Shown here: positions 2,434-28,874 of the stretch, piece after piece
Numbering within the stretch: the stretch's first letter is position 1
How the letters are laid out: every line of letters begins with the position of its first letter
From: Gemmatimonadota bacterium
Lineage (GTDB): Bacteria > Gemmatimonadota > Gemmatimonadetes > Gemmatimonadales > GWC2-71-9
Assembly (NCBI GenBank): GCA_029262155.1
Contig: JAJCZW010000048.1
Location: 1-33,747, forward strand
DNA: 33,747 bases
Direction: 5' to 3'
Position numbers and translations under genes: made by a program
The notes under the pieces: model-generated
Told to the model about the DNA's origin: nothing
The model's database searches: none
What the model saw: only the letters and a program-made list of their open reading frames with translations

Positions 2434-2798
2434 GTCAGCCTCCCACGCCCGACAAAAAAGGGGGATCCTCCTGCTGGGCCCACCTTCGGCAGCCGAGCCA
2501 TCTCGTGAGGGGAACAGGTGTGCCCCCTCTGAGACCTCTGGATTTGCGACCCCGGATCACTCCGGGTGTGCTCTTATCGGGCGAGTCAATTGTGATACCT
2601 CTCGGGCTCTGTGCCCGCACCCGTTGAATTGCGAAACCAATGCCAAATCCGCCAACTCCTTTTCGAATCATCATTTAGCATTTCGCTCATGGACCCGCAT
2701 GCAACCTTTGTCATCGCACTCCGCCGAAGGCTCCGGAGATCTGCGAGGCCCAGGGTGGGGTTGCGCCGAGGGCATCCCGCAAGTAGAGGTTAGCAGCG
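2434..2798. other. Gene-free stretch between divergent STAS and acs genes, with several hairpins
   Basis: No convincing coding region is present; the short frames here lack family features. It holds three simple inverted repeats: GAGGGG/CCCCTC at 2507-2529, CCCGGA-TCAC-TCCGGG at 2551-2566 and CGGGC/GCCCG at 2603-2617. On the minus strand a C5T6 run at 2453-2463, just upstream of the STAS ribosome binding site, could pair alternatively with the G-run of the first hairpin. Promoters for both flanking genes should lie here, but I could not pick a convincing -35/-10 pair. Confidence 0.4.
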
Positions 2799-23117: not shown

Positions 23118-23169
23118 CCCTTGCCGACGCACAATCATCTATTAGTCTTGAGGGTAGGACAATCCATTT

Positions 23170-23219
23170 CGTGGCGATTTGCGCGATTGCGGCCACGTAA
23201 AAAAATCCGCTAAAACGCA
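23170..23219 (+). ncRNA. Predicted SAM-II riboswitch upstream of metH
   Basis: The elements lie in the SAM-II order. P1 is CGTGGC (23170-23175) with GCCACG (23192-23197). The loop strand starts GATTT (23176-23180), then GCG (23181-23183), then ATTGC (23186-23190). The A-rich strand lies at 23199-23205, then GCTAAA (23209-23214), then CGC (23216-23218). GCG pairs with CGC as the pseudoknot, and GC of ATTGC pairs with GC of GCTAAA. From memory, the crystallised metagenomic SAM-II aptamer has the same GAUUU, AUUGC and GCUAAA blocks with ACC/GGU as the pseudoknot pair, so this site keeps pairing with different bases. The known role is to bind S-adenosylmethionine and repress methionine or SAM genes; the next gene is metH. 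Confidence 0.85.
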
Positions 23220-23243
23220 GCCCTGGCCCGTTTTGGCCGGGGC
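23220..23243 (+). terminator. Hairpin directly after the riboswitch, possible attenuator
   Basis: A 9-bp stem GCCCTGGCC / GGCCGGGGC (one T-G wobble) with loop CGTTTT begins one base after the riboswitch end. The trailing sequence TTCGTATT is only partly T-rich. The 5' arm TGGCC (23224-23228) is complementary to GGCCA (23191-23195) in the 3' arm of P1, so the hairpin and an alternative fold exclude each other. It could be a SAM-dependent terminator, or only a stable element near the metH ribosome binding site (GGAG, 23252-23255). Confidence 0.45.
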
Positions 23244-23262
23244 TTCGTATTGGAGCCTCACC

Positions 23263-26200
23263 ATGGCCCACACCATTACCGCCCCGGATCCGACCCTGGA
23301 CCCTGCTCGTCGACGCAAGCATCGCATTGCGACACTTGGTCCCCTGGCCGATCGCCGTATCCTGATCTTGGATGGGGCGATGGGCACTATGATCCAAGCC
23401 CACCAACTCGACGAGGCGGGGTATCGCGGCACACGGTTCCGTGAGGCGAAACACGACCTTCGGGGGAACAACGATCTCTTGAGTCTGACGCAACCAGCCA
23501 TCATCCGTCAGATCCATACCGCGTACCTCGACGCAGGCGCAGACATCCTTGAAACCAACACCTTCAACGCCAGCGCCCCCTCCCAATCCGATTATGAGCT
23601 TGAGGCGTTAGTCGAAGAACTCAACTTCCACTCCGCCCAAATCGCGCGGGCAGCCGCCGATGAAGCCGAAGCCGCTGACCCGACACGCCCGCGTTACGTT
23701 GCCGGCGTCCTGGGGCCGACCAACCGTACCGCATCACTCTCTCCCGACGTCGGAAATCCGGCGATCCGCAATGTGACGTTCACTGAATTGGCCGACACCT
23801 ATGCGGTCGCCACCCGTGCCCTTATCGCCGGTGGCGCAGATCTCCTCCTCGTGGAGACCGTTTTCGATACCCTGAACGCCAAAGCGGCCCTCTTCGCCAT
23901 CCGGAAGGTTCAGGATGAAACCGGAATATCCCTCCCGGTGATGATCTCCGGCACCATAACAGATGCCAGCGGCCGGACGTTAAGCGGGCAGACGCCAGAT
24001 GCGTTTTGGATCTCGGTGGCACACGCCCGACCCTTCTCCGTCGGGCTGAACTGTGCCCTTGGTCCGGCCGCACTTCGGCCCCACGTCCAAGACCTGGCCC
24101 GAATCGCCCCGGTGCGCGTGAGCACCCACCCCAACGCCGGGTTGCCTGATGAGTTCGGCGACTACCTGGAAACACCCGAGGCGATGGCCACCGTCCTCGC
24201 CGAGTTTGCACGGGCCGGGTTGGTCAACATCATCGGAGGGTGCTGTGGGACAACGCCGGAGCACATTCGAGCGATGGCCGATGCGGTGAAAGAGATTTCC
24301 CCACGGCAGGTGCCGGCGGCCAGCGGGATGACTCGATTTGCCGGCCTGGAGCCGCGGGCCGTCGGCCCCGATTCGCTCTTTCTCAATATCGGCGAGCGTA
24401 CCAATGTGACCGGCTCCCGTCGATTTGCTAAACTGATCCTGGACGGCCGGTACGAGGATGCCCTGGAGGTTGCCCGCCAGCAGGTTGACGCGGGGGCCCA
24501 GATGATCGACATCAACATGGACGAAGGATTATTGGATTCCGCGGAGGCGATGACCACTTTCCTTCGCTTGGTTGCCACCGAGCCGAGTATCGCGCGGGTA
24601 CCTCTGGTGATCGATTCGTCGTCCTGGCCAGTGATTGAGGCGGGCCTCCAGAACGTGCAGGGGAAACCGCTCGTCAACTCGATCTCTTTGAAAGAGGGTG
24701 AAGACGAATTCCTCCGTGAAGCTCGGTTGGCGCAGGCCTATGGTGCGGCCGTCATCGTGATGGCCTTCGACGAGCAGGGTCAAGCGGACACCGCCGATCG
24801 CAAAGTGGCCATCGCTACACGGGCCTATCGGTTGTTGATCGCGGAGGCTGGCTTCGAGCCGCATGACATTGTCATCGACCCCAACATCTTCGCCATTGCC
24901 ACCGGCATAGAAGAACACAACAACTACGCTCAGGAGTACCTCGAGGCTATTCCCCGTATCAAAGAGGCGTGTCCGGGAGTCCTTATCAGTGGTGGGGTGA
25001 GCAACGTTTCCTTCTCCTTTCGGGGGAACGATGCCATTCGCGAAGCGATTCACAGCGTCTTTCTCTATCATGCAATTGCCGCCGGGATGGATATGGGGAT
25101 CGTGAATGCCGGCCAACTTACGATCTACGACGACATTCCCACCTCCCTCCGGGAACGGGTCGAGGATGTCGTCTTAAACCGGAGGCCCGACGCAACCGAA
25201 CGGCTGCTGGAGGTGGCCGATCAGGTGCGCGGTCGAGCGGCAACCCGCACCGCCGACCTCTCCTGGCGCGAGCAACCTGTCGGCGAACGTCTCGTCCACG
25301 CCTTGGTCGAGGGTATCACCGAATGGATCGAAGCCGATACCGAGGAAGCCCGCCAGGGGGCGTCGCACCCGATCAAGATCATCGAGGGGCCGCTGATGGA
25401 TGGGATGAACAAGGTGGGCGACCTCTTTGGGTCAGGGAAGATGTTCCTTCCCCAGGTCGTCAAGAGTGCCCGGGTCATGAAGCGGGCCGTCGCCCATCTG
25501 ATTCCATTCCTGGAAGCCCTTAAGGTCGCGGAGGGAGGCTCAGAGACCACGCACCACACCAAGGGGCGGATCCTCATGGCGACCGTTAAGGGTGACGTCC
25601 ACGACATCGGGAAAAATATCGTCGGCGTCGTGCTCCAGTGTAACAATTACGACGTGATCGACCTTGGGGTCATGGTACCATCCGCGAAGATTCTTGAGGC
25701 GGCGCGCAGCCACCAGGTCGACATCGTCGGGTTGAGCGGCTTGATCACACCATCACTGGAAGAGATGACCCATGTCGCCCGGGAGCTGGAACGGGAGCAA
25801 TTCGCCACGCCACTCTTAATCGGTGGCGCGACCACCTCCCGCACCCACACCGCCGTCAAGATCGCTCCTGGGTATTCCGGTCCGACCGTGCATGTTCCGG
25901 ACGCTTCCCGGGCAGTCGGTGTCGTTTCCCGATTTCTGAATCCTGCCGAAGCCCCCGCCGCAGCTGCCGCCCTCCGGACCGAATACGACGAGATCCGGCA
26001 GCGGCGTGCGTCTGCCAGCGAAGGACGCACCCTCGGCACCATTAGGGCTGCGCGCGCTCACCGCCTCCAACTCAATTGGGCTGGATCCCCCCCTCCCACT
26101 CCGAAGATCACCGAGCCCCTCATTCTGGACGGGTATCCCCTAGAGGAACTGGTGAGTCGGATCGACTGGACGCCGTTTTTCCATGCGTGGGAGTTCCGTG

Positions 26201-27039
26201 GGGCATACCCTGCCCTCCTCGACGACCCAACCACCGGGTCGGCAGCTCGAGATCTCTTTCAGGACGCCCAGACGCTCCTGTCGCGGATCGTCGACGAGTC
26301 GTGGCTCACCGCGCGGGGCGTGGTGGCTTTCTTCCCCGCCAACACCATCAATGACGATATCGAACTCTACGTCGACCCAACCCGCGAGGCGATCCGAGCA
26401 ACCATCCCCACCCTGCGACAGCAAATGACCAAGCGAGACGATCGCACCAACCTGTCCCTGGCGGACTTTGTAGCGCCGAAATCGACCGGAGTGGCCGATT
26501 GGATCGGTGTCTTTTCGGCAACGACTGGGATCGGATTGGACACCGTCATCCAACGATTCGAACAGGCACACGACGACTACAACGCGATCCTGGCCCGTGC
26601 GCTCGCCGATCGTCTTGCGGAAGCCCTCGCCGAACGACTCCACGAGAGGGTGCGGCGCGAATGGTGGGGATATGCGCCCGATGAAGATTTCGACAACCGT
26701 GACCTGGTGAGCGAAGCCTATCAGGGCATTCGCCCGGCGCCAGGATACCCTGCCTGCCCCGACCACTCCGGCAAGACAACCCTGCTCTCCCTCTTAGGGG
26801 ATACCGCCTCAACCGGCATCACCCTCACCGAATCATTCGCGATGCTACCCACGGCCTCGGTGAGCGGATACTACTTTTGGCATCCCAAGGCCACTTACTT
26901 CGGCGTCGGCCGGATCGGGAGAGACCAGGTTGAGGACTATGCCCAGCGCTGTGGCGTCTCCATTCCTACCGTCGAACGGTGGTTGGCCGTGAACCTGGGC
27001 TACACACCACCCTCCGCCAACGGAGACCCGTCGGCATGA
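23263..27039 (+). CDS. metH: Cobalamin-dependent methionine synthase
   Basis: This is a 1258-residue full-length MetH, which transfers the methyl group of 5-methyltetrahydrofolate to homocysteine through methylcobalamin. Module 1 binds homocysteine with zinc ligands Cys264 (GLNCALGP) and Cys327/Cys328 (GGCCGTTP). Module 2 is the pterin-binding barrel (about 365-650, [16 protein letters not shown]). Then come the cap and the B12 domain, with the cobalt-ligand His780 in DVHDIGKNI, and the C-terminal reactivation domain (about 930-1258) with [12 protein letters not shown] and [10 protein letters not shown] for SAM-dependent repair. The ATG at 23263 has GGAG about eight bases upstream; the frame open from 23179 runs through the riboswitch and was rejected. 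The stop overlaps the next gene as ATGA. Confidence 0.97.
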
Positions 27040-28874
27040 ATCCCCTTCGCGTGTTACTGGACGATGGCAAGGTGCATGTGTTCGACGGTGGGATGGGAAC
27101 CGAACTGTACAATCGAGGGGTTTTTCTCAACATCTGTTTCGATGAACTCGCGATTCGGCAGCCCGAGTTGTTGCGGGATATTCACCGTGAGTACCTCCAA
27201 GCCGGAGCCGAAGTCCTCGAGACCAATACGTTTGGAGCCAATCCGTTCAAACTCGCCCACTACGGCCTTGCCAGCGAAACCAAAACGCTCAACCGCGAAG
27301 CCGCGAGGGTCGCCTGCGAAGCCGCCCATGACCGTGCGGCGGTGGTTGGCGCGATCGGCCCCCTCGGTATCCGGATCGAACCCTTCGGCGAAACCAGTCG
27401 GGTCGAGGCGGAAGACGCGTTTCGGGTGCAAGCGGAAGGGCTGTTAGAGGGTGGAGTCAACGGCATCATACTCGAGACATTCAGCGACGTTGAAGAGTTG
27501 GGCGCCGCAGTTGCTGCGGTCCGGTCTCTGACGGACCTGCCCATCCTCGCCCAGATGACGATCGGGCCGGACGGACGGACCATCTATGGAACGGCACCAG
27601 AAAGTTTCGGCCCCGCGCTGTCGGCGATGCAGGTCGATGCGGTCGGGGTGAACTGTTCGGTGGGCCCGCAGGGGGTGCTCGAAGCGGTGGAAAAGTTGGT
27701 CAATGTCGTCACCCTTCCTGTCATCGCCCAACCCAACGCCGGCCTGCCACGTCCGGTCGGTGACCGCAAGATCTACATGGCGTCTCCCGAGTATATGGCA
27801 AGTTACGCACGACGGATGGTCGAGGCGGGAGCGCGCTTTGTCGGTGGATGTTGCGGGACGACCCCAGCCCATATCCGCGCCATCCTTGGATTTGTGCAAA
27901 GCGTGACGCCCCGGTCAGGGCCAGCCCAAGCGGTCAGTCCCCCAGATATCAAAGGGGTCGATCCAGTTCCGCTGACGGAGCGATCGGCCCTTGGGGCAAA
28001 ACTGGCAGCCGGTGCCTTCGTGACGACAGTGGAGATCGTGCCGCCCAAAGGGATCGATCCGGCGCCGATGTATGCTCAAGTACGCGCATTGAAAGAAGCC
28101 GGGGTCGATGCCGTCAATATCCCCGACGGTCCCCGAGCCCAAAGCCGGATGGGGGCGCTCCTCTCCGGAGTGATGATCGAACGGGAGGTGGGGCTGGAGA
28201 CGGTGGTCCACTACGCCTGCCGCGACCGCAACCTCCTCGGCATGTTGTCGGACCTCTTGGGGGCGTCGGCGGCAGGGTTGAGAAATCTCCTTCTGGTAAC
28301 CGGGGACCCGCCGAAGATGGGACCCTACCCCGAAGCGACTGCGGTTTTCGATATCGATGCGATTGGCCTTACCAACTTGGTCGCACGCCTGAACCATGGC
28401 CTCGACCCAGGTCACAACGCGATCGGCAAACCGACCCGCTTTGTGATCGGTGTGGGTGTGAACCCCGCTGCGACCGATCTGGAAAAGGAGTTGCGCCGAT
28501 TTGCCTGGAAGGTCGAGGCCGGCGCCGAGTTTGCCGTGACCCAACCAGTCTTTGATCTTGATCAACTTGATCGTTTCCTCAAACGGATCGAGTCGTACCA
28601 GATCCCGATCATTGGAGGTATCTGGCCGCTCGTCTCCCTTCGGAACGCCGAGTTTCTGGCCAACGAAGTTCCGGGGATCACCGTCCCGAACGAGGTCCTC
28701 AAGCGGATGCGCACGGCAAGCGAAGGCGGCAAGGAGACCGCCCTCGCTGAAGGCGTTACCATCGCGAAAGAGATGCTCGCCGCCGTCCGGCACCGGCTTC
28801 GCGGAGCCCAAGTGTCTGCCCCACTCGGCCGGGTTCCGGTCGCGCTATCGGTGTTATCTGCCGGGCTGGAGTAG
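27036..28874 (+). CDS. Bifunctional homocysteine S-methyltransferase / methylenetetrahydrofolate reductase
   Basis: This is a 612-residue fusion. Residues 1-300 form a zinc homocysteine-methyltransferase barrel ([14 protein letters not shown]; zinc ligands Cys207 in NCSVGP and Cys272/Cys273 in GGCCGTTP). From about 330 to 600 is a MetF-type flavoprotein domain, with VEIVPPKG holding the active-site glutamate, TGDPPKMG, and [13 protein letters not shown] at the C-terminal face of the barrel. MetF reduces methylene-tetrahydrofolate to the methyl form that MetH uses. The layout matches YitJ of Bacillus. ATG overlaps the metH stop by 4 bp, so both are probably under the same SAM-II leader. What methyl donor the N-terminal half uses is unclear. 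Confidence 0.94.

Follow-up and report, generated by a model that had tools for sequence, protein, structure and literature searches.

The SAM-II aptamer in front of a methionine synthase gene in this Gemmatimonadota genome raises the question of how it acts on expression and which of its strands does the switching. We analyzed the window, by which we mean the whole stretch of 33,747 nucleotides, together with SAM-II leaders from its relatives. The source genome (3.2 Mb, 259 contigs, 90% complete) holds a single SAM-II copy, which sits upstream of two overlapping methionine-pathway genes:

23263-27039, plus strand: metH, cobalamin-dependent methionine synthase (Pfam Met_synt_B12, S-methyl_trans, Pterin_bind and B12-binding), with ATG 23263 as its likely start
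26979-28874, plus strand: homocysteine S-methyltransferase/methylenetetrahydrofolate reductase (MTHFR) fusion gene (Pfam S-methyl_trans and MTHFR), overlapping the end of metH

Among named genomes, the nearest MetH proteins are found in Gemmatimonadales/Gemmatimonadota records (67, 65 and 63% identity), and one Competibacteraceae bin also reaches 63%. Two aptamers in the window match Rfam at gathering scores, SAM-II and c-di-GMP-I. The c-di-GMP-I riboswitch (window 2485-2582, minus strand, 51.2 bits) is followed, some 700 bases downstream and on the same strand, by genes for an ABC transporter ATPase and then CcmB.

SAM-II is present in 58 of the 61 genomes of the group, the window's own included, in at least 93 of the 102 genomes of the family, and in 137 of 200 genomes sampled from the phylum. 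The three weakest matches of the 61-genome search were left out of the leader set. The family search added 80 further places taken among the matches listed, with partial matches (model 10-62) and the rest left out, and the phylum sample gave 18 new loci (6 being places already in the set) and 20 more. With a scored aptamer scan, 170 loci yielded 168 distinct leaders (two came from L002, L156 is the same place as L002, and L232 and L247 gave none). We refer to 101 of these as metH-type, comprising 72 metH leaders and 29 nearer the fused S-methyltransferase/MTHFR gene. For Alphaproteobacteria, 9 of 18 loci from one search were combined with 29 new ones; 37 of these 38 were retained by the scan, 35 of them with a hairpin.

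Hairpins were accepted with a dG below -7, a start within 32 nt of the core (45 nt for Alphaproteobacteria) and at least 3 T in the following 8 bases. These filters dropped leaders before the comparisons below, except for the tail test, which was repeated without the T rule. Of 32 listed leaders with a complement of the SAM-binding core, 27 were aligned (L003, L020, L113, L128 and L167 were left out).

Outside the metH type, the largest group of leaders precedes what looks like threonine synthase (22 leaders, assigned by reading translated starts rather than from a database). Translated starts also place SAM-II before genes for ketopantoate hydroxymethyltransferase, homoserine acyltransferase, MetF, homoserine dehydrogenase, O-acetylhomoserine sulfhydrylase, homoserine kinase, aspartokinase and others. 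By these starts, Gemmatimonadales relatives carry SAM-II before genes of the threonine branch in addition to methionine genes, which goes beyond the Proteobacteria regulon described in passages of PMC4239095.

The RF00521 (SAM-II) model matches window positions 23161-23236 with 46.8 bits, above the curated gathering score of 36. Judged by this likeness, the RNA would be expected to bind SAM. Its parts are as follows:

23170-23197, plus strand: P1, CGUGGC (23170-23175) with GCCACG (23192-23197), six pairs, -8.8 kcal/mol, from the RF00521 match
23176-23180, plus strand: loop L1, GAUUU, fitting the Rfam consensus and invariant in the 27 aligned leaders
23181-23183, plus strand: 5' strand of the P2 pseudoknot, GCG, complementary to 23216-23218; GCGC at 23181-23184 is invariant in the 27 aligned leaders
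23209-23214, plus strand: conserved SAM-binding core, GCUAAA, from the Rfam alignment, invariant or at least 90% conserved in the 27 aligned leaders
23216-23218, plus strand: putative 3' strand of the P2 pseudoknot, CGC, invariant or at least 90% conserved in the 27 aligned leaders

By analogy with the published SAM-II structure, the window RNA would form the P2 pseudoknot. The pairing may be extended by U23180-A23219, and a register using 23183-23185 is possible in the window alone. Because both complementary P2 strands are invariant or nearly so, the 27-leader alignment shows no P2 covariation.

Further upstream, the word ACAA stands at window 23159-23163. Among the leaders of 97 relatives, 72 repeat it no more than 20 nt ahead of P1, usually at a distance of about 11 nt, and many leaders have a TA-rich box about 13 nt further upstream. 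Together, the two elements possibly mark the promoter and transcript start. Reading ACAA as belonging to a -10 box, we found a TTGACA-like box 16-18 nt upstream of it in 1 of 72 leaders, and a simple consensus scan for promoters listed none at the leader.

Immediately behind the aptamer and before metH lies the strong hairpin that a first, sequence-only reading of this DNA had described, followed by a U-tract:

23220-23243, plus strand: terminator hairpin, with 5' arm 23220-23228, loop 23229-23234 and 3' arm 23235-23243, from folding
23244-23251, plus strand: U-tract UUCGUAUU, interrupted, 5 U in 8, from the sequence and the tail test

This is the layout of an intrinsic terminator, a GC-rich hairpin (nine pairs, -18.9 kcal/mol, or -20.6 with an extra A23219-U23244 pair) and then a U-tract. 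The hairpin has a z of -2.11, with 7 of 200 shuffles folding equally well, and its tail reads TTCGTATTGG, where the U-run is broken by CG and A. A simple consensus terminator scan listed none at 23220-23243, a miss that possibly comes from counting A23219-U23244 within the stem.

The relatives share this arrangement. A terminator-like hairpin stands close behind the aptamer in 87 of the 101 metH-type leaders. When hairpins were searched for without the T rule, 55 of 91 relatives had five or more T among the 8 bases behind the best hairpin, versus 0 of 72 control hairpins; the mean was 4.37 T, versus 1.24 behind control hairpins in the coding region. The 5 T of the window tail are the commonest value among relatives. 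These hairpins and their T-rich tails support the earlier proposal of a SAM-controlled attenuator with the hairpin as its intrinsic terminator, and we infer that transcription terminates at this hairpin and U-tract. The weak T-tract had been named as the main doubt; the tract is indeed interrupted, but the tails of the relatives reduce that doubt without removing it. A transcription platform had further been regarded as unusual for SAM-II, which it is not, because SAM-II attenuation and putative terminators have already been published (Corbino 2005; passages of PMC9373788).

An attenuator of this kind needs a strand that competes with the terminator, and the comparative data point to the SAM-binding core. 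The candidate strands are:

23209-23217, plus strand: antiterminator 5' strand, GCUAAAACG, the core plus the P2 3' strand, forming nine pairs with 23229-23237 and enriched in relatives
23229-23237, plus strand: antiterminator 3' strand, CGUUUUGGC, the terminator loop plus the top of its 3' arm, from folding and comparison

The pairing is worth -7.9 kcal/mol, or -9.8 when extended by CC 23207-23208 with G23239-G23240. We compared eight aptamer-to-hairpin pairings in 85 metH-type leaders with dinucleotide-shuffled hairpins and with the permuted hairpins of other leaders. The core plus P2 3' strand against the loop plus 3' arm gave the largest excess of the eight, with a mean of -9.12 kcal/mol for the leaders' own hairpins, -6.74 for shuffled ones and -8.07 for those of other leaders (z 5.9, reached in 0 of 2000 permutations). 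For this pairing, 38% of metH-type leaders lie at p<=0.05, compared with 9% for the next-best pairings.

A six-base complement of GCUAAA, G-U pairs allowed, occurs in the loop or 3' arm of 38 of the 85 metH-type leaders versus 0.9 in shuffles, in 9 of 60 other-gene leaders versus 1.0 expected, and in 0 of 35 alphaproteobacterial leaders versus 1.1. Similarly, an exact complement of the core strand of at least 6 nt was found in 37 of 86 metH-type leaders versus 1.3 in shuffles. By gene type, 34 of 69 metH and 6 of 18 fused-type terminator-bearing leaders carry the core complement. The remaining 47 of the 85 metH-type leaders are without the full six-base complement, which counts against the core strand as the switching strand.

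Related pairings gave smaller signals in the metH-type leaders. The same core strand against the 5' arm plus loop shows a weaker excess (z 4.2, 0 of 2000 permutations reaching it), part of which may come from the shared loop. Taken by itself, the P2 3' strand beats all but 26 of 2000 permutations (z 2.4). In other-gene leaders, the core strand shows no excess over permuted hairpins (z 0.2). A mixed sliding scan of 151 leaders of all genes gave the core strand against the loop plus 3' arm a t of 9.5 versus shuffles and 2.6 versus permuted hairpins; against the 5' arm plus loop, most segments exceeded mononucleotide shuffles, with P1 at t 7.0 and 2.7 (permuted). Because most segments beat mononucleotide shuffles in that scan, we relied on metH-type leaders, dinucleotide shuffles and permuted hairpins. 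Two other candidates were set aside, namely the P2 5' strand with the hairpin 5' arm as the metH-type antiterminator (weaker than permuted, z -3.0) and the P1 5' arm with the hairpin 5' arm (own -5.34, weaker than the shuffled -5.95, metH-type leaders).

The sequence-only reading had assigned the switch to the 3' arm of P1. The two segments that it named, GGCCA at 23191-23195 and TGGCC at 23224-23228, are present and complementary, with a duplex energy of -9.0 kcal/mol. Folded as a hairpin, this pairing yields -4.7 kcal/mol, compared with -8.8 for P1 and -18.9 for the terminator. The word GGCC is palindromic and is present in three copies in the leader, so that the same P1 letters also pair with the other hairpin arm, and more strongly (CGGCCA with TGGCCG, -6.75 versus -4.7 kcal/mol).

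That reading had also proposed looking for the complementarity in relatives, a test that it fails in the metH-type leaders. Of the 86 distinct ones that have a terminator-like hairpin, 5 (the window among them) show P1 3' and hairpin 5' arms that are exactly complementary over 5 nt or more, versus 10.0 expected from shuffles. The mean energy in 85 metH-type leaders is -6.48 kcal/mol for their own hairpins, -6.47 for dinucleotide-shuffled ones and -6.39 for those of other leaders (z -0.3). In the 27 aligned leaders, 46.7% of cells pair, rising to 59.3% when the strands are slid by one, and one of the five proposed pairs forms in 1 of 27. Other-gene leaders do slightly better (own -7.49, permuted -7.22, z 2.0, 46 of 2000), as do all Gemmatimonadota leaders taken together (z 2.0, 51 of 2000), and the mixed sliding scan points the same way (own -8.87, permuted -8.34).

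Whether the core strand and the hairpin have evolved together was judged from the letters flanking the core. Some leaders with different P2 3' letters carry the matching partner letters: ACG with CGT, AAG with CTT, and GAG with TTC. AAG with CTT occurs in L008 (13 pairs) and in four threonine-synthase-type leaders, and the GAG with TTC case comes from a different order of the class. Among the AAG/AGG metH-type leaders compared, L008 alone pairs at all of c+6 to c+8, and most of the others extend their pairing beyond the opposite end of the core. Seven flanking positions had played no part in choosing the register. Of these, c+7 (14 of 2000) and c-2 (0 of 2000) beat permutation in metH-type leaders, and c+6, c+8, c+9, c-1 and c-3 did no better than permutation. 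In other-gene leaders, no flanking position beats permutation, and c-2 goes the opposite way (1977 of 2000).

Ancestry plays no part in these permutation tests. In a tree built from 113 N-terminal protein pieces before the metH/fused split, and containing at least one place twice (L189, L307), the c+7 letter shows at least 7 changes and the hairpin preference 12. Letter and preference agree in 72 of 100 leaders (36 + 36), with 1 leader going the opposite way; of the 63 leaders with C at c+7, 27 have a hairpin without a preference for the ACG strand. Only 4 supported independent pairs have different letters at c+7. The hairpin changes along with the letter in about 1.5 of them, against it in 0.1 and not at all in 2.4 (sign test p 0.5, a test that cannot reach significance here).

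The 27 aligned leaders are 94% identical in the antiterminator strand and 75% and 69% identical in the hairpin arms, with 5 different antiterminator strands and 17 different 5' arms, a contrast that is inflated because these leaders were chosen for the core complement. No antiterminator pair shows a two-sided change in this alignment. Within the limits of the tree, a pairing of the core strand with the loop and 3' arm that is mutually exclusive with the terminator is kept in relatives. At the level of sequence comparison, conservation of the core-strand complement is well supported, and coevolution of the core strand and hairpin is only suggested.

To these comparisons we added folding of the growing transcript. 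The apo RNA was folded at increasing length, and locking of the core served as a stand-in for SAM and P2, since the folding tools used model neither a pseudoknot nor SAM. With the 3' end of the apo transcript at 23238, the antiterminator has a probability of 0.99 and the terminator 0.00. The terminator reaches 0.86 at 23242 and 1.00 from 23244, where the antiterminator falls to 0.00. Locking the core brings the terminator to 0.43 with the 3' end still at 23238. Fifty leaders selected for carrying the core complement were folded as well; in 49 of them the antiterminator rises above 0.5 while the transcript is growing, and in their final state the terminator wins in 45 and the antiterminator in 5.

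At equilibrium, the window's terminator stands at 0.98-1.00 from 23244 on, locked or not. The antiterminator is therefore not the more stable of the two in the ligand-free RNA, as a thermodynamic switch would have it; a kinetic switch needs no such thing. As the terminator wins at equilibrium either way, control must be kinetic, and in these models the choice between antiterminator and terminator would be made during transcription. About 12-15 bases of RNA are hidden inside the polymerase, so that the antiterminator strand would emerge at about the time the polymerase is on the U-tract.

Taken together, we consider it likely that this SAM-II aptamer is an OFF switch acting by transcription attenuation before metH, with the core strand as the antiterminator strand. 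Without SAM, GCUAAAACG (23209-23217) would pair with CGUUUUGGC (23229-23237) once the latter leaves the polymerase. This pairing would occupy the loop and the top of the terminator 3' arm, and transcription would continue into metH. With SAM, the core and P2 3' strand would be held in the P2 pseudoknot and binding pocket, blocking the antiterminator; the hairpin 23220-23243 would then close and transcription would stop in the U-tract near 23244-23251, giving the presumed OFF logic. Such a mechanism predicts that simple loop mutations would separate antitermination from termination.

Translational control is an unlikely alternative, in which an additional hairpin would sequester the Shine-Dalgarno sequence with the terminator hairpin as its competitor. 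The elements concerned are:

23252-23255, plus strand: likely Shine-Dalgarno sequence GGAG, from the sequence and its spacing to ATG 23263
23239-23259, plus strand: private alternative hairpin, 23239-23246 with 23252-23259, -11.0 kcal/mol, not conserved

This hairpin of eight pairs would pair the Shine-Dalgarno sequence and exclude the lower terminator stem, and its duplex (-14.1 kcal/mol) is the strongest of 54 leaders. Moreover, of the 14 metH-type leaders without a terminator-like hairpin, 11 have their likely start codon 12-16 nt downstream of the core start. However, sequestration is not conserved: that by the terminator 3' arm, tried as a candidate and rejected, gives own -5.62 against permuted -5.81 (z -0.9) in relatives. 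The T-rich hairpin tails of the relatives also speak against it, as does the order of synthesis, in which the more stable terminator stem is transcribed before the Shine-Dalgarno hairpin, and we see no evident route by which the aptamer would favor that hairpin with SAM.

The terminator-less leaders with a start codon at this short distance are L007, L009, L163, L168, L171-L174, L177, L188 and L250. Leaders of the L007 type apparently use direct occlusion, a translational platform. In gene type, 11 of the 14 terminator-less leaders precede the fused S-methyltransferase/MTHFR gene.

It is quite unlikely that the hairpin is a terminator indifferent to SAM, like the separate terminator behind the S. 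meliloti metA SAM-II aptamer, which is predicted to be unaffected by SAM (passages of PMC9373788). Equilibrium folding, which gives the terminator in both states, fits such an element. Yet it would leave unexplained both the conserved core complement in the loop and 3' arm and the absence of that complement from 35 alphaproteobacterial terminators.

Very improbable is the P1 switch itself, in which GGCCA would pair with TGGCC without SAM and SAM would lock P1 and free the hairpin, given its null result in the metH-type leaders, its low stability beside P1, and probing of a metX SAM-II RNA in which, according to passages of a review, P1 is protected with or without ligand and P2 and L1 respond; in the preferred reading, P1 is part of the aptamer and not a switching arm.

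We return to the preferred reading, the core strand as antiterminator, and to its place among known systems. The best-studied SAM-II riboswitch is compact and translational, and many natural examples have predicted terminators, according to passages of PMC9373788. Putative terminators were noted in many SAM-II representatives by Corbino 2005. The window shares with the RF00521 family (metA motif) its aptamer sequence, its predicted P1/pseudoknot layout, its placement before a methionine gene, a putative terminator between P2 and the gene and, presumably, the OFF logic. It differs in its host, placed in Gemmatimonadota by its MetH, and in its proposed antiterminator strand, which is the binding core.

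SAM-II is common in this phylum (137 of 200 sampled genomes), and we found no paper linking it with Gemmatimonad- names in the open-licence literature searched. In the literature passages covered, no mapping of the switching strands of predicted SAM-II terminators was found, and passages from open-licence papers, as distinct from subscription papers and supplementary figures, did not name the core strand as a SAM-II antiterminator. The choice of the core strand looks new, and the attenuator platform looks to be of a known general kind; a drawing of a SAM-II antiterminator may already be in print somewhere. Our comparative data point to particular switching strands in one lineage.

Two systems known from text passages come closest. 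In S. meliloti, the SAM-II aptamer of metZ is likewise directly followed by a Rho-independent terminator predicted to depend on SAM, and an sRNA whose size would fit was seen (passages of PMC9373788, Scheuer 2022). The comparison covers the features described in those passages. In our set, 0 of 35 alphaproteobacterial leaders carry the six-base core complement. For Gluconobacter oxydans, RNA-seq showed 20-fold more 5'-UTR than gene coverage at a SAM-II leader, suggesting termination, and a computed terminator and antiterminator are cited for it (passages of PMC5756330); these passages leave the antiterminator strands unnamed.

Closer to the window, the other-gene leaders of Gemmatimonadota have the same aptamer and a hairpin with at least 3 T in the next 8 bases, the latter being a condition of the search. 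They differ in that the P2 5' strand is complementary to the hairpin 5' arm plus loop (59 leaders, own -11.44, permuted -9.74, z 8.0). In Alphaproteobacteria, the P2 3' strand against the terminator 5' arm exceeds shuffled hairpins but not permuted ones (own -9.39, shuffled -6.46, permuted -9.26, z 0.4). Tentatively, and with somewhat less than even confidence, we propose a wider picture. In Gemmatimonadota metH-type SAM-II leaders, the terminator loop and upper 3' arm would capture the core, ligand and antiterminator would compete for it, and the choice would fall at 23238-23243; the phylum would have a second arrangement, using the P2 5' strand, for other genes. A third, pairing the P2 3' strand with the 5' arm, would perhaps occur in Alphaproteobacteria, making several separately evolved antiterminators on one aptamer. 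The comparison suggests that, from one lineage or gene to another, the same aptamer is coupled to different expression platforms.
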